Source of the DNA: Chloroflexota bacterium
Lineage (GTDB): Bacteria > Chloroflexota > UBA6077
Length of the DNA: 23,339 nucleotides
Direction of reading: 5' to 3'
Assembly (NCBI GenBank): GCA_021788565.1
Contig: JAJYKO010000005.1
Coordinates: forward strand, 1 to 23,339
Under the pieces are notes generated by a model that had not been told where the DNA came from, did no database searches, and was given only the letters and a program-made list of their open reading frames with translations. A program made the translations under genes and the position numbers. How positions within the stretch are numbered: the first letter of the stretch is position 1; every line of letters begins with the position of its first letter. Shown piece after piece: positions 3,254-17,227 of the stretch.

Positions 3254-4471
3254 TCAATTGATGGAGCTTCTGGGATGGATCGAGTAGTTCCATTCGCCGT
3301 GGAAGCTGTCCAGGTAGATCTGGACCCCTGCCAACTCATCGTCCGAGACCTGTTTCTTGGTCGGGTAGGGAGTGGAGTCCAAGGCCGCCCGGATCTGGAG
3401 TCCAGCCGGGGTCATGGTGCTCCCGATCAAACTGACCACTACTTCGTGACTGACCAGCGGTCGGCCTCGCCAGTTCTGAGTGATATGCGAGAACATCCGA
3501 TGTTCGATCTTGTTCCACTTGCTCGTGCCAGGGGGAAAATGGCAGACCGACACACGCAGTCCTGTCTCATCAGCGAATTGCTGCAGGGCCAACTTCCACA
3601 ACCGGGAACGGTTGCCATTGCTTCCACCACCGTCGGCCATGATGAGCAGTTCGGTCGCCTCGGGATACTTCGGTGCCCCCATTTGCTCCCACCATCGACG
3701 CACCGTTGCCACGGCAAACTCCGCCGTGTCGTGATCGGTGCCCACGCTCACCCACCCCTGGTTCGCCCAGACGTCGTAGACACCATAAGGGATCGCCTTT
3801 CCCAGCGCCTGGCTCGGGAAATCGTGAACCTGCACCAGTTCTGGCTGACCTTTCGGCTGCCACTCCCGCCCGCCGTTCTTGAATTCCCCCACCAACTCCT
3901 TCTTCTTCGCATCCACCGAGATAACAGGTTGGCCTCGCTGCTGAAAGGCCAACGCCTGCGCGTTGATGTGCTCGAACTGCGCGTTGCGGTCGGGATGGGA
4001 CGCCCCTTCCTTGGTCTTGCGATTCGCCTGCAAGCTGTAGCCCAGATCTCGCAGCAGATCCCCGACCTTGCGTCCGCTGATCCTGTGGCCTTTCTCTCCC
4101 AGGGCTTCCGCCAGCTTGTTCAGACTCTTGCATGTCCACCGCAAGGGCGACTGGGGGTCGCCACGGGCGGACGGCTCCACCAGCGCCTCCAGGTCTCGCA
4201 GCAGCGTCGGGTCCTGCTCGGTCAGCGCCTTCCGCCCCCCACCAGGACGCCGCAGCCGCTGCTCGGCCGGCACCACCGTCGGCGTTACCGTCAACTCGCT
4301 GATGCCCTGGGCGATGGTACTCCGCGCCATCCCGGTAGCCCGGGCAACCAACGCCACCCCACCCCGCCCGAAGGCCTGCGCTTCGGCAGCCGCTACCAGG
4401 CGCCGCATCCGCTCGGTCAACACCGGGTGCAGCGTCTCAAAGACTCTCTTGATGCTCTGCTCATCTGCCAT
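3254..4471 (-). CDS. ISAzo13-family DDE transposase
   Basis: Catalyses cut-and-insert of its own element. The 405-residue product has an N-terminal HTH-like part (FGRGGVALVARATGMARSTI, about residues 34-53) and an RNase-H-like DDE core. That core shows ISVDAKKKELVGEFKNGG, with the first Asp near 187, LIMADGGGSNGNRSR with the second near 280, and KWNKIEHRMFSHI with Glu near 323. These strings are typical of the ISAzo13 group (Pfam DDE_Tnp_ISAZ013). I chose ATG 4471 (MADEQSIKRV), the usual N-terminus of the family; ATG 4498 in the same frame is possible. No strong ribosome binding site precedes either. Full length and uninterrupted, so probably active. Confidence 0.9.
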   Translation of the reverse strand: MADEQSIKRVFETLHPVLTERMRRLVAAAEAQAFGRGGVALVARATGMARSTIAQGISELTVTPTVVPAEQRLRRPGGGRKALTEQDPTLLRDLEALVEPSARGDPQSPLRWTCKSLNKLAEALGEKGHRISGRKVGDLLRDLGYSLQANRKTKEGASHPDRNAQFEHINAQALAFQQRGQPVISVDAKKKELVGEFKNGGREWQPKGQPELVQVHDFPSQALGKAIPYGVYDVWANQGWVSVGTDHDTAEFAVATVRRWWEQMGAPKYPEATELLIMADGGGSNGNRSRLWKLALQQFADETGLRVSVCHFPPGTSKWNKIEHRMFSHITQNWRGRPLVSHEVVVSLIGSTMTPAGLQIRAALDSTPYPTKKQVSDDELAGVQIYLDSFHGEWNYSIHPRSSIN

Positions 4472-4504
4472 AAGCACATCATAGCACCGACAGACCAAAT
4501 GACT

Positions 4505-6211: not shown

Positions 6212-6282
6212 ACCTGTGGATTCTCACAGGTAAAAAACTGGCAATTCTGACAGTACGCAAGCCCGAGTGGATAGGAAAGAAT
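6212..6282 (+). promoter_or_regulatory. tandem dyad operator and -10 of the C39-like peptidase gene
   Basis: Site one is ACCTGTGGATTCTCACAGGT (6212-6231), a dyad with 7 of 8 paired arm bases. Site two, AACTGGCAATTCTGACAGTA (6236-6255), is centred 24 bp downstream. The core CAGGTAAAAAACTGGCAATT (6227-6246) matches the cores at 4811-4830 (minus) and 13194-13213. A -10-like AAGAAT (6277-6282) follows by 21 nt. The proximal site would centre near -43, as for response regulators that contact polymerase. The predicted leader to ATG 6477 is about 190 nt. Confidence 0.65.
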
Positions 6283-6476: not shown

Positions 6477-7301
6477 ATGAAAGTCAAGCTACTAGCTATA
6501 CTACTATCGGCAATCACCCTTGCGACTGCGGCCCTGCCGGCCTACGCGGACGGCCCGAATACTCCACCAGGGTACAAGCAGCCCACCAGGCAGCTTACCG
6601 GCCAGGAGGCTGCCAGAAACAAGCAGAAAGCAACGGAAGCCGACGCTTTGTTTCGCATGTTCAACAGCTATCGCGAAGGAAAAGCCGGCTACGCGGCGCT
6701 CGAGAAAGTGGTCCAGGTATTTAACGATCACTGGGCCAAGGGCAAACCTGCGAAGGAGACAATCGAGCGGTTAGGACAGGCCGACCCCAATCTAGGGCTG
6801 AACCTTGTCGCCCAAGAAACCGGTTACTGGTGTGGTCCAGCCAGCGCGTACATGGGGCTGGCCTACAAGGGCGCATGGATGGATCCCAGAAACCCGAGCA
6901 GGTCGCTAAGCCAAAGCAACCTCGCCACCGATCTTGGCACAAGCCAGGATGGAACCATTTGGGCAAACGTCCCCGGGGTGTTGAACGCCTGGGCTAACAC
7001 CAATTGGTATGCCAACTTCAGTGCTCCTACTTCCACACAGGTGATGAACGACGCCAGCCTGGACTATGCCAATAGCTACCCTTGGATCTACGATACTCAC
7101 ATGAGCAGTTCAACCGGTTACCTGACCGGATGGTCGAGCGGCGACATATGGCACTACGTTGCGGGTGACGGGTACGACAACAATTCGCAGCAAGTCCACT
7201 ACTATGATCCCTATTCGAGCAACCCGAACGCCTACGGTAACTGGTGGATACCGGCTAGCACGATGAGCGGGGTTCTTCAAGATCGTGGAATGACTTGGTG
7301 A
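6477..7301 (+). CDS. secreted C39-like (papain-fold) cysteine peptidase
   Basis: 274 residues. Residues 1-24 are a Sec signal peptide ending PAYA. Residues 39-100 are a charged helical pro-like region. The C-terminal domain has the Peptidase_C39-like layout: Q113 and ETGYWCGPAS with C119 as nucleophile, LATDLGTSQDGT, then DIWHYVAGDGYD with H226 and HYYDPYS with D244. The catalytic set is complete, so it is probably an active peptidase or amidase outside the cell. Unlike ABC-exporter C39 domains it is free and exported. ATG 6477 has GGAG 8 nt upstream. Transcription is probably controlled from the dyad pair at 6212-6255, which links it to the peptide-kinase operon at 8785-12984. The final residue is Trp. 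Its substrate is unknown. Confidence 0.8.
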   Translation: MKVKLLAILLSAITLATAALPAYADGPNTPPGYKQPTRQLTGQEAARNKQKATEADALFRMFNSYREGKAGYAALEKVVQVFNDHWAKGKPAKETIERLGQADPNLGLNLVAQETGYWCGPASAYMGLAYKGAWMDPRNPSRSLSQSNLATDLGTSQDGTIWANVPGVLNAWANTNWYANFSAPTSTQVMNDASLDYANSYPWIYDTHMSSSTGYLTGWSSGDIWHYVAGDGYDNNSQQVHYYDPYSSNPNAYGNWWIPASTMSGVLQDRGMTW

Positions 7302-7387: not shown

Positions 7388-7597
7388 CCTTCCGGCGTTC
7401 TTGAATCGTCGAGGCCACGTGCTTCGGGCAGCCAGCAGGCAAGCCGGTAACTCAGGGATCGGCCGAGAACCGGCCCTAGGTCGTTCCTGCGTGTGGAGCA
7501 GTGGGCACAAGATGTCATCCCGCTGCAGCGATACGCCAAGATCGTGGGGCGTCCGTCTCAATGGCTGCAAACAAATGGAGAGGAGTTGGGCAAGAAG

Positions 7598-8779
7598 ATG
7601 AGACTAGCCGTGTCCTTCACCTGCGTACTCGTCGTCGCCGCCAGCTTGGTGAGCGGATCTCTTGGATGTGCCCAACAACCGGCTGTCCGGTCCAACGTCG
7701 ACAAGGGCGGAACGATAGCAGCGGAAGCCACCCCAATGGTGGCAAGACTGCCCTCGGGCATCACAATGGAGCTTCCAAAGAACGTCGGGTTCCTGCGTGG
7801 AGTAACTAATCGGGGCAATCTACTGGTGTCGTTGTGGAAAGACGCGAACCCCCCCGTCATCGGAGAGGAAATATACGAGTACGACATAGCGAGCGGGCAG
7901 TTCCGGTACCTTGTCGGACCTTCGGATCCTCAGCTGACAATTATTAGCGCTTCTCTATTTAACTCCTGGCTGCTGTGGGGAGAGTCCCGACGCGTAGTTG
8001 AGGGGCTCGGATGGAAACTGCATCTAAAGAACTTGGAAACCGGAGAGGACGCCATTCTAGCGCAGGACGATCTGGGCATTCCTGAGGGGACGATCTTGGC
8101 CAACATTGCGCCCCATAACCCTTCCATAAATGCGAGGTACGCTGCGTGGGATCAACTGACGCGGAATGGCGACAGCTTTGACTCGCAGATATTTCTGTAT
8201 GATCTGCGAAGCAAGGAGAGGAGATCCATAGCAAGAATACAGCGCGGCGGGCTAGACCTGGTAGTCTCGTCCCCTCAGCTATACGACAATCTCGTCGTGT
8301 GGAATAAGGTGTTCTACGATAGAGCTAACCTGGTCGCACATCCGGATGTCTACCTGCTCGACATCGATAAGGGTGAGGTACGGCAGCTGACGAACAACGG
8401 AAAGAGCTTCGCGCCTGTAGTCTCAGGGAATCACGTTGCATGGATGTACCGCAGTACACCTGAAGGTGTTTATGGGCAGATCGAACTCTATGACCTGGCC
8501 ACCAACCGGCTGAGGAGGCTCACCGATTCGGATCCTCGCGAAGGGAATTGGGGCCCCAGTATCGGCTCGCAGGCTGTTGCGTGGCAAACGACGCTAGCGG
8601 ACAAAGCGCAGGCCTACGATCTTGCATCAAAGAGGCTCCTGGTACTGGACAGCGGCTATATCGACAGGGTGTTCACCAATGCCAATGTCGTGGCCTGGCA
8701 ATGGAACGAGCCCAATAAAGACCGAATCGACCCTCTGGCACGCAGGATACGGTTTACGTTGCTTCCAGGTGATGGCTAG
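7598..8779 (+). CDS. exported beta-propeller (TolB/WD40-like) protein, possible lipoprotein
   Basis: 393 residues. A signal sequence (MRLAVSFTCVLVVAASLVSG) runs to C24 in SLGC; the lipobox is imperfect (Ser at -3), so lipidation is likely but not certain. The rest holds repeated blades of the form YEYDIASGQFRYL, LHLKNLETGED, FLYDLRSKERRSI, YLLDIDKGEVRQLTNNG, ELYDLATNRLRRLTDSD and AYDLASKRLLVL, alternating with ARYAAWDQL, GNHVAWMY and SQAVAWQT. This is the PD40/TolB-type propeller, usually a protein- or sugar-binding surface. Start choice is open: ATG 7598 has AGGAG 12 nt upstream; TTG 7586 in frame has GGAG 5 nt upstream. The open frame extends back to 7493, but that would bury the signal peptide. 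Converges on the response regulator gene with 5 bases between stops. Confidence 0.75.
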   Translation: MRLAVSFTCVLVVAASLVSGSLGCAQQPAVRSNVDKGGTIAAEATPMVARLPSGITMELPKNVGFLRGVTNRGNLLVSLWKDANPPVIGEEIYEYDIASGQFRYLVGPSDPQLTIISASLFNSWLLWGESRRVVEGLGWKLHLKNLETGEDAILAQDDLGIPEGTILANIAPHNPSINARYAAWDQLTRNGDSFDSQIFLYDLRSKERRSIARIQRGGLDLVVSSPQLYDNLVVWNKVFYDRANLVAHPDVYLLDIDKGEVRQLTNNGKSFAPVVSGNHVAWMYRSTPEGVYGQIELYDLATNRLRRLTDSDPREGNWGPSIGSQAVAWQTTLADKAQAYDLASKRLLVLDSGYIDRVFTNANVVAWQWNEPNKDRIDPLARRIRFTLLPGDG

Positions 8780-8784
8780 AAGGG

Positions 8785-9411
8785 CTACACCAGCCAGCCG
8801 TTACGCCGGGCCAGGTGCACCAGTTCCGTGCGGGAACCGGCGTTGAGCTTCGAGAAGAGATTGCCGAGGTGGAACTGGACCGTGCGGTCGCTAGTGCAGA
8901 GCCGGCGGGCGATCTCCTTGTTGCGGAGCCCCTCCGCGACCAGCCGCAGTACCTCCATCTCGCGAGGAGTGGGCTCGTCGTCGGGGGACTGGTTCGCCCC
9001 GCCGCCCAGCATCTCCGCGATCATCGGTTGGAAGTAGGTATTGCCGTCGCGCACGGCGAGCAACGCCCTCACCAACTCCTCGGACGAGGCCGCCTTGGAG
9101 AGGAACCCCTGAACCCCCAGCCGGACCAGGGCCCGGGCATACTGTTCGCTGTCGTAGCCGGTGAGGATGACTACTCGGATCTCCGGGAACTCCCGTCTGA
9201 GCACTTCCGACACCTGCACCCCGTTCAGGCCCGGCATGCTGATGTCGAGCACTACGATATCCGGCCGCAACTCCTCGGCCAGGCGCAGGGCCTCCTCCCC
9301 ATTCACCGCCTCGCCGATCACCTCGAGGTCCGGCTCCACCTCCAGAAGGCGGCGCGTTCCTTCCCTCGTGATTGCGTGGTCGTCAGCCAGCAGCAGTCGG
9401 ATCCGGCTCAT
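8785..9411 (-). CDS. NarL/FixJ-family response regulator, ComA-like
   Basis: 208 residues: receiver domain 1-120 with acidic pair D10-D11, phospho-acceptor D56 (VVLDISMPG), T84 and K106, then a LuxR-type HTH around 148-203 (PTPREMEVLRLVAEGLRNKE; SDRTVQFHLGNLFSKLNAGS). All activation residues are present. It is the last gene of the four-gene minus-strand operon. Its ATG overlaps the TGA of the kinase gene (ATGA), so the two are translationally coupled and surely partners. By analogy with ComA it should bind DNA when phosphorylated. The dyad operator at 13064-13083, and those at 4802, 6212 and 13179, are the best candidate targets; this pairing is inference. The membership in NarL/FixJ is certain, the ComA role depends on the operon context. 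Confidence 0.93.
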   Translation of the reverse strand: MSRIRLLLADDHAITREGTRRLLEVEPDLEVIGEAVNGEEALRLAEELRPDIVVLDISMPGLNGVQVSEVLRREFPEIRVVILTGYDSEQYARALVRLGVQGFLSKAASSEELVRALLAVRDGNTYFQPMIAEMLGGGANQSPDDEPTPREMEVLRLVAEGLRNKEIARRLCTSDRTVQFHLGNLFSKLNAGSRTELVHLARRNGWLV

Positions 9412-11789
9412 CGGCGAGCCCCGGGCAGCAGCCGAATCCCGGTCCGGAGGTCATCAACCACGTGGATCCGCACGCGGACTTCGGTGCCTTTCCCGGGCGC
9501 CGAAACCACCCTCAGTCTCCCGCGGAGCCGTTCCACCCGCTCGTGCATAGTTGCGAGGCCAAGATGCCCGCTGCGAAGCAGGGCTGCTGGCGATGCAGGC
9601 ACCACGAAGCCCCGCCCGTCATCGCGGACCGTCAGCTCAACCTCGCGGTCTTCCAGCCTCAGTTCGATGACGGCCGCGTCCGCTTCGGCGTGGCGACACG
9701 CGTTGTCCAGCGCCTCGCGCGCCACCCTGTACAGTGTGTCCTCGACGGGGGGCGTAAGCCGGCAATCCTCGGGAAATCCCTCGGTCGAGAATCGGACGAC
9801 GACGCTTTCGTCCCGGTTCGTCCGGCTGACGAGGCTTTCGAGCGCGGCGACCAGCCCCAGATGGGCAAGCTCCGACGGATAGAGATCCGAGCAGATGGTG
9901 CGCAGCTCGTGGACGGCGTCTCGGCCCCGCTCGGCCAGTTCGTGCAGGCGCACGGCCGGGCCATCGCCATCCGGGTGACCCAATGGTGCGCCGTGAGGCG
10001 CAGTGTCGGCCTGGCGAACCAGGTCCAGCACAGTGTGCAGAGGACCGTCGTGGATCACCTCGGCCAGACGCTTGCGTTCCTCCTCCTGGACCCGCAGCAG
10101 ACGGTCTCCAAGCAGCTCCAGCTCGGCAACCTTCCCCTGGAGCCTCTCCACCAGGAGGGCGTTGGCGATCGCAACGGCCGCCTGGCTCGCAATGGTCTCG
10201 GCCAGGGTCAAGTCCTCGACGCTGAAGTCCACTCCGGAGCGCTTGGGGGCCAGGTACAGAACCCCGATCTCCTCGCCATGGACAACCAGTTGAATCCAGC
10301 GTCCGGGGCCGGCGGGATTTTGCCCAGTCCAGCCCGCTGTGCCGCCGGCAACCGACTGAGCAAGCGGCATGTCGCCTGGGTCCCCAGTGCTCACCCTCAT
10401 GACGAGCTCTCCATCGGCATTCCGCGTGAAGACCGCCGCCCCACGGAGGTTCATCGTTCGCGCGAGGCTGTTGGCGACGTCGCTGAGCACCCGATCGATG
10501 GGCTGTGGTGAAGCGAGCCGGTAGCCGAGGGCCCTCAAGGTCCGCACGTAGTCGTAGCGGTCGCGATAGATCAGATGGTCGACGATGAGCCGAAGCCTAT
10601 CCCGAACCGGAATGAAAGTCATCGTCAGGGCGGCGAAAAAGAGCAGCGAGAGGATCGGGGTGCTATGGGGGATCGGGCCATCCCCGACGAACCCGAGCCC
10701 GTACAGGAAGAGGGCGTAGCACCCGGCCAGCAGGAAGGTCATCGCGCCATAGACAAGGGCCCGCTCCGCCACGACGTCGATCCCGAAGAATCGATGCCGC
10801 ACGATGGCGTAGGCAGAGCCGGCAGGCAGGAGGATCGCGGTGAGGGCCGCGAACTGCGGACGAAGGATGGGCGAGGCGCCGAGGCTGGCCGGGATGAGAG
10901 AAAGGATCGTCAGGGGCGCGGCCGCCACCACCGCGCTGACGAGGACGATCTGAATCTGCGGACGGGCGTCCGGCGACCTGGGGCGGACGTACGCCATCAG
11001 GAGGACGGCGAGCCCGGAGATGATCCCTAATGAGAGAAGACCCAACAGGACAACGCGGAGCGAATAGTACCACTCGGACCCTGCCTCTCCTGCCAGCAAA
11101 TAGAGAACGCCACAGCCCACGCCAACGACCAACAGGGCCCGTATGGCGATAATTGTCCGCCCCATGGGTGGAGCGCCCCGGGCAAACCGCGCAGTGAAGC
11201 CCAGAAACAGCGCTGGCAAGTGGGCGAAGGCCAGAACCTCAACCACCTTAGCCCAGACGATGTCGGCGCCAGCCGCGGGAGTCAGCGCCAGGACAATGGC
11301 CGCCGCCACGTTTAGCTTGTAGAACTCGCGGGCGAGCTCGTCACCCGGCTTCAGTAATCGAACGAGGACGGCTACCCCCCAGAAGGCCAGCGCGATCGTA
11401 AGGAAAGCGACAGGCTCGCTGAAGTCATACCAGGGAGTCCGCTGCCAAGCCGGCCTCATAGCCAGCGTATGCCCATCCCTGAGCACTGCCCACTCGCTCG
11501 CCGCGCTCAGGTTCAGACTGGGATCGGTCTTCCGGCGGGCAGCAGGCTGCGCTCCGTCCAGGGACACCACGACATCGCCGGCACGAAGCCCGGCCGCAGC
11601 CGCAGGACCTGCCGGGTCCACCCAGGTGACGACCCAGCCGTCGCCCTCCCACTGCACTCTCGCGCCGACGTCGGATTCGTATAAGTGGGCGGTCACCCAG
11701 GGCAGCAGCATGATCGCCAGCACCCCGAGAGACACGACCATCGATCGGCCGGTCTCCTCGAGCAGCCGATTCAAGACCCGCGAAAACAC
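9408..11789 (-). CDS. PDZ and multi-helix membrane sensor histidine kinase, ComP-like
   Basis: 793 residues. Order: membrane helix 17-35; extracytoplasmic PDZ domain about 40-112 (GWVVTWVDPAGPAAAAGLRA, GDVVVSLDG); about eight to nine further helices from 124 to 395; GAF-like domain about 428-545; HisKA_3 dimerisation and phosphoacceptor region with EEERKRLAEVIHDGPLH (H580); HATPase with N box REALDNACRH (about 691-700), VRDDGRGF (721-728) and GHLGLATMHERVERL (741-755). The kinase is of the NarX/DegS/ComP class, which phosphorylates NarL-type regulators, matching the gene it overlaps. GTG 11789 follows GAGG by 9 nt and lies 17 bases after the polyprenyl synthetase stop. A large membrane sensor next to a peptide and prenyl transferase gene is the ComP position. 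I infer that PDZ plus helices sense the modified peptide. Confidence 0.93.
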   Translation of the reverse strand: MFSRVLNRLLEETGRSMVVSLGVLAIMLLPWVTAHLYESDVGARVQWEGDGWVVTWVDPAGPAAAAGLRAGDVVVSLDGAQPAARRKTDPSLNLSAASEWAVLRDGHTLAMRPAWQRTPWYDFSEPVAFLTIALAFWGVAVLVRLLKPGDELAREFYKLNVAAAIVLALTPAAGADIVWAKVVEVLAFAHLPALFLGFTARFARGAPPMGRTIIAIRALLVVGVGCGVLYLLAGEAGSEWYYSLRVVLLGLLSLGIISGLAVLLMAYVRPRSPDARPQIQIVLVSAVVAAAPLTILSLIPASLGASPILRPQFAALTAILLPAGSAYAIVRHRFFGIDVVAERALVYGAMTFLLAGCYALFLYGLGFVGDGPIPHSTPILSLLFFAALTMTFIPVRDRLRLIVDHLIYRDRYDYVRTLRALGYRLASPQPIDRVLSDVANSLARTMNLRGAAVFTRNADGELVMRVSTGDPGDMPLAQSVAGGTAGWTGQNPAGPGRWIQLVVHGEEIGVLYLAPKRSGVDFSVEDLTLAETIASQAAVAIANALLVERLQGKVAELELLGDRLLRVQEEERKRLAEVIHDGPLHTVLDLVRQADTAPHGAPLGHPDGDGPAVRLHELAERGRDAVHELRTICSDLYPSELAHLGLVAALESLVSRTNRDESVVVRFSTEGFPEDCRLTPPVEDTLYRVAREALDNACRHAEADAAVIELRLEDREVELTVRDDGRGFVVPASPAALLRSGHLGLATMHERVERLRGRLRVVSAPGKGTEVRVRIHVVDDLRTGIRLLPGARR

Positions 11790-11806
11790 CTCACGTTGCC
11801 TCGGGT

Positions 11807-12784
11807 TTAGCTTCCGCGCATCCGCGCGACTAGGTCGAGAAGAGGCACGGCTTGGCCGGGTGCAACGCCATCCAGGCAGCTCAGGGCTCTGTCCCAGTAT
11901 ACGTCCGCGACGGCGAATGCGTAGTAGAGTCCACCGCTCGCGGCCAGGAGATCCCGGATCCGATCGACTCCGTCGGGACTGAGCTGACCGACGCGGGCGC
12001 GGCGGAAAAGCCCGCCAAGTTCCTCCCGAAGCTCTTCAGGCCCATTCTCCAACGCGAAGAGCGCCGGAAGACTCAGCTTGCCCAGCCGAAGGTCGTTGCG
12101 ATCCTCTCGCCTTGTGGAGTCTGCGGCAAGATCGTTGCCGATCTGCAGAGCCGTTCCCGCGTTCAGCCCAAACCTGGCGAACGCCTCGACCTCATCAGAC
12201 CCCGCCCCAGCGACGATTGCCCCGGACCGGCACAGGCACTCCACCATGGACGCTGACTTCGCCTCGATCATCCTCAGGTACTCGGCCTCATCCATGCTTT
12301 CAGCGTTTCCCCGATCCAAGTCCCTCTGCTGGCCTGCGCACGCCCTGGCACCGGCGGCGGCGAACGCCTGAACGATATCTAGGACCGCACCCTCCGGCAC
12401 CCTCAGCGTTCTGAGGCGACCGAGGGCGAGCTGACTCAGGAACAGGAGAAAAGCGCCGACGTTGGTGGCAGTCGCGACCCCTGATACCCGCCAGAGTCCT
12501 TCCTCAGTGTCCCGGTCCTGGACGTCGTCGAGGGTATCCGCGGCCGAGATGAAGCACTCCGCCGCCGTGCTGAGTGGCAACGCCCGTGCCGGGTCGCCGC
12601 CCGCGGCCTCGCAGACCAGGAGAGGGAGCAGGCCCCAGGCGAAGCCGTCCCCTTCAGCGAGCAGCCTGCCCCGCGCTCGCAGAGCTCGCCAGACTAGGTT
12701 GATCGCTGGGAAGCCTGCACCCTCCTCCTCGACGCACCGGGCCACCTCCGCCGCGGCTGCCTCCCTGATGACGCCTACGGCCAC
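11807..12784 (-). CDS. polyprenyl synthetase-family protein, candidate ComQ-like peptide prenyltransferase
   Basis: 325 residues of the trans-isoprenyl diphosphate synthase fold. First Asp-rich motif DTLDDVQD (D83, D86, D87, D90) is intact. The second is NDLAAD (N217, D218, D222) in QIGNDLAADSTRRED, where chain-elongating synthases have DDxxD; the N-D-x-x-x-D form occurs in divergent members including ComQ. GKLSLPALFALEN and IEAKSASM complete the family signs. The GTG start overlaps the peptide gene by 10 bases, so synthesis is coupled to the peptide. No other isoprenoid gene is nearby, which argues against a lipid pathway and for modification of the peptide's Trp, as ComQ does on ComX. It could still make a free prenyl diphosphate. 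Family certain; peptide substrate inferred. Confidence 0.85.
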   Translation of the reverse strand: MAVGVIREAAAAEVARCVEEEGAGFPAINLVWRALRARGRLLAEGDGFAWGLLPLLVCEAAGGDPARALPLSTAAECFISAADTLDDVQDRDTEEGLWRVSGVATATNVGAFLLFLSQLALGRLRTLRVPEGAVLDIVQAFAAAGARACAGQQRDLDRGNAESMDEAEYLRMIEAKSASMVECLCRSGAIVAGAGSDEVEAFARFGLNAGTALQIGNDLAADSTRREDRNDLRLGKLSLPALFALENGPEELREELGGLFRRARVGQLSPDGVDRIRDLLAASGGLYYAFAVADVYWDRALSCLDGVAPGQAVPLLDLVARMRGS

Positions 12785-12984
12785 TCGCCGTCCGGCCCGA
12801 CGAACGGCATCTCGGAGCCGCCCGCCGCGGCCAGACGGGTGCGCAACCGAAGCAGCGCCCGGTGCTCCTCGGCCGGGACGCCCCGATTGGCCAGGGTTCC
12901 CTCAGGCGAATCGAGGAAGGACTGGAGGAACTCGCTGTCCGCGAACAGACCCCGAATCAGCTCCTTGAGACCCTGTGACACCAT
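12775..12984 (-). CDS. ComX-like pheromone precursor peptide, 69 residues
   Basis: Starts at ATG 12984 with an AAAGGGG ribosome binding site about 10 nt upstream; GTG 12993 would add three residues. Residues 1-52 are a helical, charged leader (FLQSFLDSPEGTLANRGVPA, then EEHRALLRLRTRL). Residues 53-56 are AAGG and the tail is SEMPFVGPDGEWP, with Trp next to last. ComX precursors also have a helical leader and a short C-terminal pheromone with one Trp near the end that is prenylated. The gene overlaps the prenyltransferase gene by 10 bases and is first in the operon. The leader also resembles RiPP leaders of the type xxLLxxPExxLxxxGLxxEE. Too short and divergent to prove homology to ComX; call rests on operon position, size and Trp. 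Cleavage after GG would give a 13-mer. Confidence 0.72.
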   Translation of the reverse strand: MVSQGLKELIRGLFADSEFLQSFLDSPEGTLANRGVPAEEHRALLRLRTRLAAAGGSEMPFVGPDGEWP

Positions 12985-13035
12985 CGTGCACACACCCCTT
13001 TCTCGAAATGTGGAGCCGCTTGGTGGGATGCCGGC

Positions 13036-13083
13036 AGTCTACCACGAGGTTGAGGAACGCGGTACCTGTCAATTCTGACAGGT
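13036..13083 (-). promoter_or_regulatory. dyad operator and -10 of the peptide-kinase operon
   Basis: ACCTGTCAATTCTGACAGGT (13064-13083) is a perfect dyad; with flanking GT/AC the arms are 10 bp with a 4-bp spacer. On the minus strand TAGACT (13041-13036) follows 22 nt downstream, placing the dyad centre near -45 and the start near 13029, about 45 nt before ATG 12984. No good -35 hexamer is present at 17 nt, as expected for an activated promoter. The operon's own response regulator is the natural candidate activator (inference). Confidence 0.65.
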
Positions 13084-13178
13084 ACGCCTTTCCCCTGCGC
13101 GGCTCCTCACTGTGCATCTCGAGACGAACGGAGTGCGTAGCTCGTCTCCTCCATACTGCGCGGTACCCCTCCAGCGTC

Positions 13179-13248
13179 ACCTGTTGAAATTGCCAGGTCA
13201 AAACCTGTCAATTTCCCCGGTGTGTATCCGTACAGGCACACGTATGCT
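13179..13248 (+). promoter_or_regulatory. tandem dyad operator and -10 of the secreted six-Cys gene
   Basis: Sites ACCTGTTGAAATTGCCAGGT (13179-13198) and ACCTGTCAATTTCCCCGGTG (13203-13222) are centred 24 bp apart with CAAA between them. The core CAGGTCAAAACCTGTCAATT (13194-13213) matches those at 6227-6246 and 4811-4830 (minus). TATGCT (13243-13248) follows by 20 nt, giving a start near 13255 and a leader of about 220 nt to ATG 13476. It lies back to back with the operon promoter at 13036-13083, the two operator regions being about 115 bp apart centre to centre. Confidence 0.65.
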
Positions 13249-13475: not shown

Positions 13476-14270
13476 ATGCTTACCACAGTCAGGAAGGTGG
13501 TGTGGATGGCAGGAGCTCTCCTGCTGGCCACGGCCATGATGACGAGCTCCACGGTCGTCAGTGCCAACGGCCCGGATTTGGTGCGTGTCTCTGCCAAGGT
13601 GAACGGCATCGAGTCTCCCGTTGCCCCGGGTTCGCTTGTCGCGAAGGGGACGTTGAAGGCCGATGGAGCGTGCGATACCCCGCTAGTGACGTTGGAAACA
13701 GCAGTGTCCAAGGGTGGGCCCAAACATGTGAGTGTTTCCGTGGAAACCTCGCCTCAGTGCGAGATGATCGTCAAGGAGGTGAGCTCTAGCTCGTCAATAG
13801 TCCAACCTCCCTCCCGACCTGGCAATGTCAAGTCGGTAAATCCTGCAGCGGTTAACGGTTCGCCCGCTCCCGGACGATCGGCTCCCATGGGCGCCCTGGA
13901 GACTACCTATCGAGTTTGGGCAGAGTCCGTGTACAGAGATGTGGCGCGTCTCGCTCTGACAACTGCACATGGAGAGTTGCAGTACAAGGACAGTGGCTCC
14001 CAAGTCTACGGTGGGTCTAACCCGAACAATTACTGTTGGTGGCTTCCTGACGGGTGGAGCCTCGACTCGTGCTCTTCCACATGGGATCCAAACGGCACGA
14101 GCGAAGTGTGGTCAGAGGACTACGGCTCATTCCACTTCACGGGCAACAACTGGCCGCATTCGCAGTCAGCCAGGGCCATAGGATTGCCCGGGGACAGCTA
14201 CTCAGCATCGTGCAGTCACCAGGGTGACACGGTCCCTGGTGGCCTTTGGACTTGCGACTCGGGACGGTAG
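13476..14270 (+). CDS. secreted six-cysteine protein, family unknown
   Basis: 264 residues. Signal peptide 1-30 (cut after VVSA). Residues 31-100 are beta-rich with C66 and C95. Residues 102-140 are a Ser/Pro-rich linker. The C-terminal domain 142-264 is aromatic and has C187, C199, C246 and C260 (NNYCWWLPDGWSLDSCSSTW, SEDYGSFHFTGNNWPHSQ). Six Cys would allow three disulfides outside the cell. No enzyme motif is seen. ATG 13476 has GAGGAGG 6 nt upstream. The gene is divergent from the peptide-kinase operon and shares its control region; the tandem operator at 13179-13222 predicts joint control. It may be an effector of the signalling system, for example a toxin, adhesin or binding protein, but this is a guess. 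Confidence 0.75.
   Translation: MLTTVRKVVWMAGALLLATAMMTSSTVVSANGPDLVRVSAKVNGIESPVAPGSLVAKGTLKADGACDTPLVTLETAVSKGGPKHVSVSVETSPQCEMIVKEVSSSSSIVQPPSRPGNVKSVNPAAVNGSPAPGRSAPMGALETTYRVWAESVYRDVARLALTTAHGELQYKDSGSQVYGGSNPNNYCWWLPDGWSLDSCSSTWDPNGTSEVWSEDYGSFHFTGNNWPHSQSARAIGLPGDSYSASCSHQGDTVPGGLWTCDSGR
13773..13788 (+). repeat. 16-bp direct repeat, copy 2, inside the coding region
   Basis: Second exact copy of AAGGAGGTGAGCTCTA, here coding for part of KEVSSS at the start of the linker of the secreted six-Cys protein. Confidence 0.5.
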
Positions 14271-15421: not shown

Positions 15422-15468
15422 AGCTGTCAGAAACCACAGTATTTTGCTCATGCACGGCGAGCGATGAT
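15422..15468 (+). promoter_or_regulatory. candidate weaker copy of the dyad operator with -10
   Basis: AGCTGTCAGAAACCACAGTA (15422-15441) matches 14 of 20 positions of the dyad ACCTGTCAGAATTGACAGGT. GATGAT (15463-15468) follows by 21 nt, the same spacing as at the stronger sites, and the lipoprotein ATG is 43 nt further. No clear second site lies 24 bp upstream. Treated as a candidate only. Confidence 0.35.
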
Positions 15469-15510: not shown

Positions 15511-16038
15511 ATGTCTCGGGACCATCGTATGCGCTATATAGTGGCTCTGTTCTTTGTCACCAGTTCATTGGTTGTCGCCTGCGCTTCCGGACCGGGCCAG
15601 ATTGGCGGCCAAGCGCCGGGCGCACGATCCGCGCCTCCCTTGACCCCCATGCCGACGGTGGACGTGCCATCCGTCGAGAGATTCGATCTCGCCTCATATC
15701 GCCGCATCGAGAACCACGTCGATCCGAAGGGCGGCGGGCCAGTTTACATCGAGGACCGGAACCCCACGGTTCGAGCCCGGGTGCGCGGCATCAAGCGGCT
15801 GGACGTCCTCCTGGCACTGAATGCTCGCGACACAGTTGCTACGGTCGCGGGCGTGCCCGACAGGGGCGGCAGCGTCGAGGTGCAGCTCCGGTTGCCGCAG
15901 GCAGGGGTCATCTACGTGGTGTCGGCGACGGCGGTGCCGGTTGACCAATCGGGAGACCTCTGCTGCACGGCCGTCAACGAGCGCGGCGAGCACATCCTCC
16001 CGGTTACGCCCTCCTTCAGGGTCGTGGCCGAACAATAG
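15511..16038 (+). CDS. lipoprotein, unknown function
   Basis: 175 residues. Lipoprotein signal with basic SRDHRMR, a hydrophobic core and lipobox LVVAC (C24). A Pro/Gly-rich tether follows (SGPGQIGGQAPGARS). Residues 50-175 form a beta-rich domain with RRIENHVDPKGGGPVYIEDR and VEVQLRLPQAGVIYVVSAT, and two adjacent Cys (DLCCTAVNERGEH). No known family recognised. ATG 15511 has GGAG 7 nt upstream. The upstream candidate operator (15422-15441) may place it in the same regulon as the secreted proteins. Confidence 0.7.
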   Translation: MSRDHRMRYIVALFFVTSSLVVACASGPGQIGGQAPGARSAPPLTPMPTVDVPSVERFDLASYRRIENHVDPKGGGPVYIEDRNPTVRARVRGIKRLDVLLALNARDTVATVAGVPDRGGSVEVQLRLPQAGVIYVVSATAVPVDQSGDLCCTAVNERGEHILPVTPSFRVVAEQ

Positions 16039-16175: not shown

Positions 16176-16796
16176 TTGTCTCCAGTACGCCGTGGTCAGG
16201 ATAACTCCGCGGCTTCCGATGTGCTCACAACCGGTCAGGCCGCAGCTGCCCTTGGCGTGAGGTCGGTCAATACAGTGAAGCAATGGGTGAGGGACGGAAC
16301 CCTGGACGGCTTTCGGCGCGGTTCCAGGATCCTTGTACTGAAGAACTCGGTGGTCCGTCTTCAGAACGAGGGGAAGGCCGGGCGCGGCGGGGCGGTCCGC
16401 ACCATCGTCGGGGCCAGAGCGGGAGATGCCAAGAATCGGGACGCGTTGTCCGCGCTTCTGGAGCTGCCGGAGAGGACGGATCAGACCCAGCGCGCGAGAA
16501 TCCTTGCCGGTACAGTCGCGGAGATAAGGCGGCGGGTCCGTCCGACGCTCCGGGGCCACGGGATCTCAAGGGCATTCTTGTTCGGATCGGCAGCGCGAGG
16601 CGACGTTAGCAGGCGGAGCGACATCGACATCGCCGTCGAGCTGCCCGCGAACTCCACCCTGGACCTCGTCGGTTTCGTGGGCCTCGGATTGGAACTGGAG
16701 GGAGTGCTGGGACGGAAGGTCGACCTGGTCAACTCGGCGACCATGAAGCCACGGATAAGAGAGAGAGTCGAGATGGAGCAGGTTTCGATCCTTTAG
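16176..16796 (+). CDS. mntA: MNT-type nucleotidyltransferase antitoxin with N-terminal HTH
   Basis: 206 residues. Residues 16-53 are an excisionase/MerR-like helix-turn-helix (LTTGQAAAALGVRSVNTVKQ, then DGFRRGSRILV). Residues 105-206 are a minimal nucleotidyltransferase: FLFGSAARGDVSRRSDIDIA gives G137-S138 with ten residues before D149 and D151, and a third Asp at 183 (KVDLV). This is the GSx10DxD pattern of MntA, which AMPylates the HEPN toxin HepT and silences it. TTG 16176 has GGGAGG 5 nt upstream. The toxin gene follows after 14 bases. The HTH fusion is unusual for MntA and suggests the protein also represses its own promoter at 16067-16096. Confidence 0.85.
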   Translation: MSPVRRGQDNSAASDVLTTGQAAAALGVRSVNTVKQWVRDGTLDGFRRGSRILVLKNSVVRLQNEGKAGRGGAVRTIVGARAGDAKNRDALSALLELPERTDQTQRARILAGTVAEIRRRVRPTLRGHGISRAFLFGSAARGDVSRRSDIDIAVELPANSTLDLVGFVGLGLELEGVLGRKVDLVNSATMKPRIRERVEMEQVSIL

Positions 16797-16810
16797 GGAA
16801 GGCTGGCAGG

Positions 16811-17227
16811 ATGGGAAGGGGCGACGAAGCCGGCAGGAGTGCGCAGCCGGAGCCAGAGACCAGGCATCCATCACATCGGGTAGTCGAGGACTACCTGTAC
16901 GACATCCTCACGGCCATTTCGAAGATCGAGCGGTACATGGCCGGGGTCACGGAAGGGCAGTTCCGTCAAGATAGCGAGAAGCAGGACGCGGTCAGCCGTA
17001 GGCTCCAGATCATCGGCGAGGCAGCGAAGTACATACCGAGGACCCTTCGAGTCAGACACCCGGAGATACCCTGGAAGGCGATCGTCGGGATGCGCAATAT
17101 CCTGACTCATGCCTACCATGATGAAGATCCGGGTCTGCTCTGGAGGACGGTCCAGACCAGGTTGTCCTCGCTGGAAGAGGCTGTCCAGGACCTGCTCGAC
17201 AGAGTGGCCAAGTCTGGGGGCGACTGA
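16811..17227 (+). CDS. hepT: HEPN-domain (DUF86) RNase toxin, HepT-type
   Basis: 138 residues, an all-helical HEPN domain from about 24 onward (VVEDYLYDILTAISKIERYM; RLQIIGEAAKYIPRTLRVRH). The catalytic R-x4-H is R95 to H100 in MRNILTHAYH, and Y102 two residues later is the Tyr that MntA-type antitoxins AMPylate in the RNxxxHxY motif. It is expected to cut RNA when unmodified. ATG 16811 has GGAAGG 8 nt upstream; the first 22 residues are outside the usual domain. Directly downstream of the antitoxin gene in one operon. Motifs intact, so a functional toxin-antitoxin pair is likely. Confidence 0.88.
   Translation: MGRGDEAGRSAQPEPETRHPSHRVVEDYLYDILTAISKIERYMAGVTEGQFRQDSEKQDAVSRRLQIIGEAAKYIPRTLRVRHPEIPWKAIVGMRNILTHAYHDEDPGLLWRTVQTRLSSLEEAVQDLLDRVAKSGGD

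Follow-up and report, generated by a model that had tools for sequence, protein, structure and literature searches.

The window analysed here is a stretch of 23,339 nucleotides from a Chloroflexota bacterium (contig JAJYKO010000005.1), in which four tightly packed genes, here named X, Q, P and A, occupy positions 12984 to 8785 of the minus strand (Table 1). A preliminary description of this DNA, made from its letters alone, had read them as a ComQXPA-like prenyl-peptide quorum-sensing operon of the order X-Q-P-A in a GC-rich, non-Bacillus genome, and this is supported here at the sequence level, with a GC content of 62% and 75-88% GC at the third codon positions of X, Q, P and A. Of the two phyla compared, Chloroflexota is favoured as the likely host by the window's nicotinate phosphoribosyltransferase, which shares 75% identity with that of the Chloroflexota genome G094, in the same class as G001 (the genome that carries locus L001). 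This enzyme was matched at 1e-80 in 85 of 400 Chloroflexota genomes and in 1 of 149 Bacillota genomes, there at 46% identity. In Bacillus, cell-to-cell signalling by ComX proceeds through a small peptide that is lipid-tagged on a tryptophan (Trp), sensed and answered. The four genes of the window are adjacent and on one strand, as comQXPA requires, and the gene calls returned exactly the layout that had been described, with an overlap of 10 bases between X and Q, a gap of 17 bases between Q and P and an overlap of 4 bases between P and A. The products were likewise as previously read: a 69-residue peptide with Trp in the next-to-last position (Trp68), a polyprenyl synthetase (Pfam polyprenyl_synt, 6.3e-24) with the motifs DTLDDVQD and NDLAAD, a histidine kinase in which Pfam and hydropathy place a PDZ domain, multiple helices and HisKA_3, and a NarL-type response regulator (Pfam Response_reg, 5.9e-27, and GerE, 1.5e-20) with Asp56 as the likely phospho-acceptor.

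Table 1. Genes, protein features and candidate regulatory sites of the X-Q-P-A locus, in window coordinates (aa, amino acids; IDS, isoprenyl diphosphate synthase)
Feature	Position	Strand	Description	Basis
X	12984-12775	minus	ATG start, 69 aa, ends ...DGEWP; precursor peptide	
Q	12784-11807	minus	GTG start, 325 aa; predicted ComQ-type trans-IDS-like tryptophan prenyltransferase	
P	11789-9408	minus	GTG start, 793 aa; ComP-type receptor histidine kinase	
A	9411-8785	minus	ATG start, 208 aa; NarL/ComA-type response regulator	
X leader and tail	12775..12984	minus	Helical, NHLP-like leader, residues 1-53; unstructured tail at the C-terminus, Trp68 being the penultimate residue	profiles, model
Trp68 codon	12781..12783	minus	TGG, predicted prenyl acceptor	sequence and Trp conservation
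Q first Asp-rich motif	12515..12538	minus	DTLDDVQD, residues 83-90	alignment, motif comparison
Q pseudo second motif	12122..12136	minus	NDLAA, residues 217-221 (NDLAAD, 217-222), preceded by invariant Gln214	alignment, motif comparison
P PDZ domain	11529..11672	minus	Residues 40-87, loop between hydrophobic segments 1 and 2	Pfam, hydropathy
P membrane sensor	10599..11750	minus	Nine hydrophobic segments, residues 14-397	hydropathy, profile
P HisKA_3	9867..10079	minus	Residues 571-641, likely phospho-acceptor His580	Pfam, motif
P HATPase_c	9462..9743	minus	Residues 683-776	Pfam, motif
Perfect inverted repeat	13062..13085	none	GTACCTGTCA-N4-TGACAGGTAC, upstream of X; candidate A site	repeat search
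Imperfect dyad	13186..13215	none	Same half-sites, GAAATTGCCAGGT-N4-ACCTGTCAATTTC, upstream of X	repeat search
Two related dyads	6212..6255	none	6212-6231 and 6236-6255, 222-265 bases before 6477-7301 (plus); candidate further target	

Q keeps the first DDxxD motif (DDVQD) and lacks the canonical second DDxxD for isopentenyl diphosphate, which is reduced to NDLAA, in agreement with the motif rule of ComQ. ComQ is described as retaining the second Asp alone in its second motif, with NDxxx or GDxxx needed and an N-to-D change drastically lowering geranylation (PMC5331326), and Trp-acting enzymes as having a Gln directly before this motif (PMC13290415). A protein search with Q returned 29 relatives at 41-71% identity (P0004-P0032), followed by a drop to 34% and to canonical synthases, and the DD..D of the first motif, Gln214 and N217-D218 were kept in 30/30 rows of an alignment of the window with these relatives (A1). 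Among 400 Chloroflexota genomes, 323 matched the Q profile at 1e-25, mostly via canonical synthases. When 30 loci were opened, 8 were ComQ-type (7 with P and one cut off by a contig end), 21 carried L[IV]HDD together with a DD second motif, and one (L075) combined an ND second motif with a canonical first motif and had no P. Across the loci examined, enzymes of the ComQ type, with an ND second motif and no His before DD, had P as a neighbour wherever the contig reached far enough (that of L023 being detected by profile alone), and the canonical Chloroflexota synthases had none. The exact first-motif pattern occurred in 12 of the 400 genomes, of which six were ComQ-type (G001, G253, G267, G347, G046, G004) and the other six matches (L106, L107, L108, L112, L115, L116) lay at loci with no Q, X or P match; this pattern is no census, having missed the true members G273, G199, G044 and G174.

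Phylogenetic placement was consistent with the motif comparison. In an unrooted tree of 76 rows, built from 13 of the 30 A1 rows and from selected loci, 21 canonical-type synthases (L075, with its ND motif, included) fell on one side of a branch with support 100, and a clade of 14 rows (support 99) held the window, L001 and 12 relatives from metagenomes. When the alignment was stripped of both motif stretches and the three long rows L011, L088 and L023 were omitted, the canonical group was again separate, at support 97; with the motifs retained and the same rows left out, support was 99 each for the canonical group, the window clade and the Bacillota ComQ. The possibility raised in the preliminary description, that the transferase might group firmly with lipid or carotenoid synthases, is thus not borne out, the canonical-type rows standing apart from Q and from Bacillus ComQ in all three trees. 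The structure model of Q (predicted local distance difference test, pLDDT, 91.6) had as its second Foldseek match the enzyme Ord1 (PDB 9v4g), with a template modelling (TM) score of 0.77. At one further locus (L071/L100), the Q frame (236 aa) begins only at the first Asp-rich motif, 286 bases after X, and its start may have been frameshifted or lost.

The precursor gene was assessed through its leader, a feature not seen in the preliminary description. The structure model of X has four helices up to residue 53 and an unstructured tail, at a modest pLDDT of 70. Of the 16 precursors aligned (A2), 12 matched the Os1348/NHLP model NF038399 at E<=0.01 (best 5.5e-11), and 12 weakly matched Pfam LigA (best 1.8e-5). 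The first selection of X sequences had demanded a Trp near the end, which makes Trp conservation within A2 partly circular, and tests that used the leader only avoid this circularity. With the window's X and the close homologue of X excluded from its construction, a profile of the leader alone matched X as the sole hit among 222 window open reading frames (ORFs), at 9.7e-14; this, and the recurrence of the genes together in other genomes, places the X ORF beyond chance. When each case was held out of such a profile, the ORF upstream of Q ranked first in 15/15 (the window plus 14 loci), with values from 6.5e-9 to 3.4e-32, and every one of these ORFs had Trp among its six C-terminal residues. 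Against 5.8 billion proteins, a leader-only profile gave 575 matches, and among the best-scoring 120, all distinct and close to the Dehalococcoidia precursors, Trp lay within the last 13 residues in 120/120 and within the last 8 in 118, most often at -6 (71) or -2 (39). The aligned Trp column of these 120 held no other residue, and the most variable columns flanked it, with entropies of 3.57 and 3.42 bits before and 3.25 bits after. Trp is therefore conserved in homologous loci, a point on which the preliminary description had made its proposal depend, and an invariant Trp amid hypervariable neighbours fits a pheromone that switches pherotype. A Trp-ended ORF of 45-100 aa within 300 bases upstream of Q was present at 15/16 ND-type Chloroflexota loci, the sole miss being L088, versus 3/21 canonical loci; of 57 Bacillota loci, 17 had such an ORF upstream, 31 downstream and 45 on at least one side. 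Profile comparison of X-type with Desulfosporosinus precursors gave a fair match (probability 86%, E 4.9e-6, 65 columns).

An alternative in-frame GTG start at 12993 would lengthen X to 72 aa; the ATG start is supported by the homologue P0002, which is 88% identical and starts MVSQ, and by GAGAAAGGGG 10 bases upstream. The TG of the Trp68 codon doubles as the TG of the GTG start codon of Q (12784-12782). The same 10-base overlap, with the Trp codon feeding the Q start, was found at eight loci when Q was taken from its first start codon (the window, L001, L011, L013, L020, L026, L027 and L086). This overlap is not the reason for Trp conservation, since many other loci keep the Trp without it.

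In P, Pfam detected PDZ_6 (1.6e-7), GAF, HisKA_3 and HATPase_c (1.8e-15), and hydropathy showed one segment, the PDZ loop and then eight further segments. This is the architecture of ComP, in which a first transmembrane segment, a PDZ domain and multiple transmembrane segments precede HisKA_3 and HATPase_c; the published account of BaComP gives it ten helices, with a PDZ fold separating helices 1 and 2 (PMC9620489). A Chloroflexota sensor profile (the window and 14 loci) recovered ComPs of Bacillota, that of B. spizizenii with 4.3e-25 and a span of 22-418 of 439. Of the 7558 ORFs at 99 loci, those that it matched at E<=1e-3 were receptor-type ORFs at Q loci, in a test whose negative set is small because canonical loci were flanked by about 1.5 kb. 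In seven of nine whole genomes, a 7-row sensor profile (A3) matched com-like loci over nearly the full length, the locus concerned in G001 being its second one; short partial matches occurred in addition in two. In the class of G094, 13/29 genomes matched the sensor at 1e-12, and the membrane part alone is not diagnostic, since many of these matches covered the membrane part only and lay without Q.

The outputs of the receptors differed across the 16 Chloroflexota-type receptors scanned (the window and 15 loci). HisKA_3 was found in two (the window and, below cut-off, L105), HisKA in five (L004, L008, L009, L023, L130), a PAS-HisKA-REC hybrid in five (L002, L007, L101, L102, L104), HD_5/HD-GYP in three (L006, L100, L103) and HD-GYP with GGDEF in one (L033). 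HHE and GYP were present in 4/4 of the HD proteins, HD[IL]G in three (unmatched in L006) and GGDEF in L033. In these four proteins a ComP-type sensor is fused to HD-GYP, and in L033 also to GGDEF, with no kinase and with an ND-type Q adjoining. The regulator A has the architecture of ComA, a receiver with a GerE helix-turn-helix, which is not discriminating given the size of the NarL family.

A scan with two patterns over one genome from each of 84,980 species returned 137 stretches, of which 69 were relatives: 12 in Chloroflexota or near kin (L001-L009, L016, L023 and L033, the last a Sphaerobacter placed in Thermomicrobiota by NCBI) and 57 in Bacillota, including Bacillus, Lysinibacillus, Paenibacillus and Desulfosporosinus. 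As the patterns were derived from the window's own Q family, this is no exhaustive census. An ND-type Q beside P occurred in at least 13 of the 400 Chloroflexota genomes (G001, G273, G347, G253, G267, G199, G044, G174, G046, G004, G206, G086, G150), a lower bound for which the top-scoring loci alone were opened. X preceded Q in 8 of these 13 (G001, G273, G347, G253, G267, G044, G046, G004) and lay between Q and P in G150 and at the second locus of G001; a clear X was not found in G174, G206 or G086, and the G199 locus starts at a contig end. Desulfosporosinus-type loci have X before Q, overlapping Q and P and, in most, A after P. The search of related genomes suggested in the preliminary description returned loci with the precursor first and shows that this order is not special to this lineage: X-Q-P-A is the order in Desulfosporosinus, some Chloroflexota have Q-X-P, and uniqueness of the order was accordingly rejected.

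Several genomes and loci illustrate the variability of gene order. G001 holds two com-like loci of different order, L001 with X-Q running to a contig end and L130:2275-6710 with Q-X-P, the precursor of the latter having 78 aa and ending FWFG. Desulfosporosinus lacus has three com-like loci in one genome (L010, L017, L126); X comes before Q at two of them, and at the third Q is followed by a peptide of the ComX family. In L136:145-4098 and L143, which are Q-X-P loci, the precursor ends NWW or FWN, and that of L136 matches the NHLP-like leader profile (6.6e-5), which indicates that leader type and gene order vary independently.

In comparison with Bacillus comQXPA (PMC4008528), the window has the same four kinds of gene, adjacent and on the same strand with gene overlaps, and likewise a ComQ-type pseudo second motif, a small precursor with Trp near its C-terminus, a receptor kinase in which a first transmembrane segment, PDZ and multiple transmembrane segments lead to HisKA_3, and a NarL-type regulator. 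It differs in its order (X-Q-P-A rather than Q-X-P-A), in a precursor that has an NHLP-like leader and is unrecognised as ComX, in a GAF domain found in P and undetected in B. spizizenii ComP, and in belonging to Chloroflexota rather than Bacillota, with relatives whose receptors have other outputs. It is probable that X-Q-P-A is a divergent homologue of comQXPA that works as a prenyl-tryptophan peptide quorum-sensing system, and a variant rather than a plain member, since two classical features, the order and the ComX model, fail. Judged by motifs, trees and profiles, Q is homologous to ComQ and P to ComP; X is read as a PalX-like leader precursor and the system as no independent invention. 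Of the earlier wording, 'independent or very divergent', the second part therefore stands and the first does not, given this homology of transferase and receptor.

A number of observations weigh against this reading. The trees do not discriminate between a position of the window's Q clade nearer to the canonical enzymes and one nearer to other Chloroflexota ND enzymes (support 25; approximately unbiased test 0.325), the top NCBIfam match of Q is an encapsulin-cargo prenyltransferase model at 106 of 450 bits, far below its cut-off, and the best Foldseek match is a geranylgeranyl diphosphate (GGPP) synthase (TM 0.86); with that enzyme first and Ord1 second, the fold alone does not discriminate. 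Pfam ComX (PF05952) matched neither X nor the 16 A2 precursors, and the match of X to NF038399 of the NHLP clan (1.7e-4, 21.6 bits) falls short of the curated threshold of 40; the comparison with ComX and leader profiles proposed in the preliminary description thus yielded no ComX match and a weak NHLP-clan one. As a positive control, 9/9 Bacillota precursors (A6) matched Pfam ComX, and none of ten Desulfosporosinus-type precursors (A5) did. Profile comparison of X with true ComX was weak (probability 39%), and the search for close relatives of X returned P0002 alone. Loci L105/L131, L132 and L133 have Q and P without a clear precursor, and L001, the sole relative in the window's Q clade for which DNA was at hand, ends inside Q at a contig end, so that within this clade the full four-gene order is seen in the window alone. 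For the receptor, a whole-genome search with the 7-row sensor profile at E<=1e-10 failed to recover ComP in B. spizizenii, and Pfam PDZ was above cut-off in some receptors only (the window, L006, L102, L105), the PDZ of B. spizizenii ComP itself falling below it (20.5 of 23.2 bits). Finally, three longer perfect palindromes lie elsewhere in the window, and at 8 other loci the region before X lacks the window's half-site palindrome.

One alternative explanation is a PalXQ-like operon for a ribosomally synthesised and post-translationally modified peptide (RiPP), in which Q prenylates X to give an antimicrobial or otherwise bioactive lipopeptide, and the role of P-A is to govern the making of this product or the protection of the producer, not to respond to cell density. 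The NHLP clan is a clan of RiPP leaders, and the layout of PalX/PalQ/PalP in Paenibacillus alvei (PMC10853753) shares with the window an NHLP leader with a C-terminal Trp, a trans-IDS-like transferase and an adjoining histidine kinase. Nevertheless, the window does not conform to PalXQP, as X ends WP and the second motif of Q reads NDLAA: in PalQ both ends of this motif are still Asp (D200, D204; PMC10853753), whereas Q has the ND of ComQ, and PalQ activity is reported to be abolished by extensions beyond Trp (PMC13290415), whereas X ends Trp-Pro. The Pal cluster, in the accessible portion of its description (PMC10853753), consists of three genes with no regulator, whereas the window has A. 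Homology of P to ComP over the sensor, the hypervariable residues beside an invariant Trp, which fit pherotype change, and a four-gene operon without a transporter or immunity gene also argue against this explanation, which appears unlikely. Among other Trp-modifying enzymes, Ord1 has the same fold as Q, and both have a Gln before the second motif, which in Ord1 is DD (QIRDDL) and in Q is ND; Ord1 farnesylates free tryptophan (PMC13290415), whereas Q is predicted to act on the peptide X. Cyanobactin peptide prenyltransferases also prenylate peptide side chains including Trp (PMC5331326, PMC10853753), and belong to another family with the ABBA fold, whereas Q has an all-helical isoprenoid-synthase fold.

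A second explanation is convergence, whereby an enzyme resembling GGPP synthase was brought together with an NHLP peptide and a kinase of the ComP type independently in Chloroflexota. The failure of Pfam to recognise X as ComX, the possible placement of the window's Q clade next to canonical synthases at support 25, and the ND motif of the canonical-type enzyme L075 would be compatible with this. Against it, the ND motif, the preceding Gln and the absence of a His before DD are common to Chloroflexota and Bacillota, the receptors are homologous, and Desulfosporosinus has X-Q-P-A loci with a precursor profile that matches X along its length, such that convergence is also considered improbable. 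That Q is an ordinary prenyl diphosphate synthase or lipid enzyme in a two-component operon, with X a small unrelated or untranslated ORF, is very improbable in spite of its assignment by Pfam and NCBIfam to the polyprenyl synthetase superfamily and of its closest PDB fold, given ND in place of DDxxD, the recurrence of X and P as neighbours and the invariant Trp in relatives of X; as a lipid or carotenoid synthase specifically, Q was rejected on the ND motif comparison and the three trees.

For the preferred reading as a prenyl-tryptophan quorum-sensing system, we infer prenylation, processing, export, sensing and regulation as its steps. Q would bind X at its helical leader and move a geranyl, farnesyl or longer prenyl group to Trp68 from a diphosphate held by DTLDDVQD; removal of the leader and export of the short lipidated tail would follow. 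On binding this tail via its extracytoplasmic PDZ/membrane sensor, P would autophosphorylate at His580 and hand the phosphate on to Asp56 in A, which would bind the N4-spaced inverted repeats upstream of X in a feedback loop, and perhaps sites near other genes.

In its accessible portion, the 2014 census reported no comQXPA-like locus outside Firmicutes and listed Desulfosporosinus among com-like loci (PMC4008528, Dogsa 2014), and a KEGG-based survey recorded a ComP-ComA kinase-regulator pair in Chloroflexi (PMC8895600). No report of a complete comQXPA-like set in Chloroflexota was found in the literature searched, which covers few subscription papers. It is reasonably likely that Trp-prenylated peptide pheromones constitute signalling in a second phylum, where a conserved Chloroflexota receptor of the transmembrane-PDZ-membrane type reads a prenylated NHLP-leader peptide and drives exchangeable outputs, including HD-GYP and HD-GYP with GGDEF, a single receptor setting cyclic di-GMP (c-di-GMP) in some species; ComX may on this account descend from an NHLP RiPP leader. 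If so, prenyl-peptide quorum sensing would span two phyla, including the Dehalococcoidia, and the NHLP-like leader would tie ComX-type pheromones to RiPP biosynthesis. The invariant Trp with hypervariable neighbours would allow pherotype specificity to be tested in bacteria other than Bacillus, receptors whose output is HD-GYP or GGDEF would amount to a direct switch from peptide to c-di-GMP, and ND-type transferases would enlarge the toolkit for peptide lipidation on Trp.

The candidate regulatory sites upstream of X share the N4 spacing of ComA sites and differ in their half-site, ComA sites being described as inverted repeats of TTGCGG with an optimal spacer of 4 bases (PMC4797271). Perfection of the repeat is not the argument, since the window holds six perfect repeats with arms >=9 (1.65 expected); position, spacing and repeated half-sites are. 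A pattern drawn from these sites, and hence post hoc, occurred four times at <=1 mismatch, three of them exact, versus 0.17 expected, and two of the four occurrences precede a secreted Peptidase_C39_2 gene at 6477-7301 on the plus strand. Counted as dyads, 3 sites (query included) were found at <=3 mismatches in 16 positions versus about 0.07 expected, a count that becomes unremarkable at 5 or fewer mismatches, and a separate dyad search gave 4 matches versus 1.1 expected. Of the 8 other loci compared, 6 had no perfect repeat of arm >=8 upstream of X, and L033 and L100 carry other repeats. Between 8500 and 13700, one sigma-70-like site and no terminator were detected, with none upstream of X.

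A weaker dyad at 15422-15441 precedes a lipoprotein-like ORF near 15526, and together with the dyads before 6477 it possibly marks a regulon. The operon is flanked by secreted or lipoprotein-like ORFs at 13476-14270 and 7493-8779 (plus), with no Pfam family at E<=0.01. Further out lie a 414-aa ORF at 3254-4498 (minus), which resembles an insertion sequence transposase, and two ORFs at 16176-17227 (plus) that resemble an MNT/HEPN toxin-antitoxin pair.

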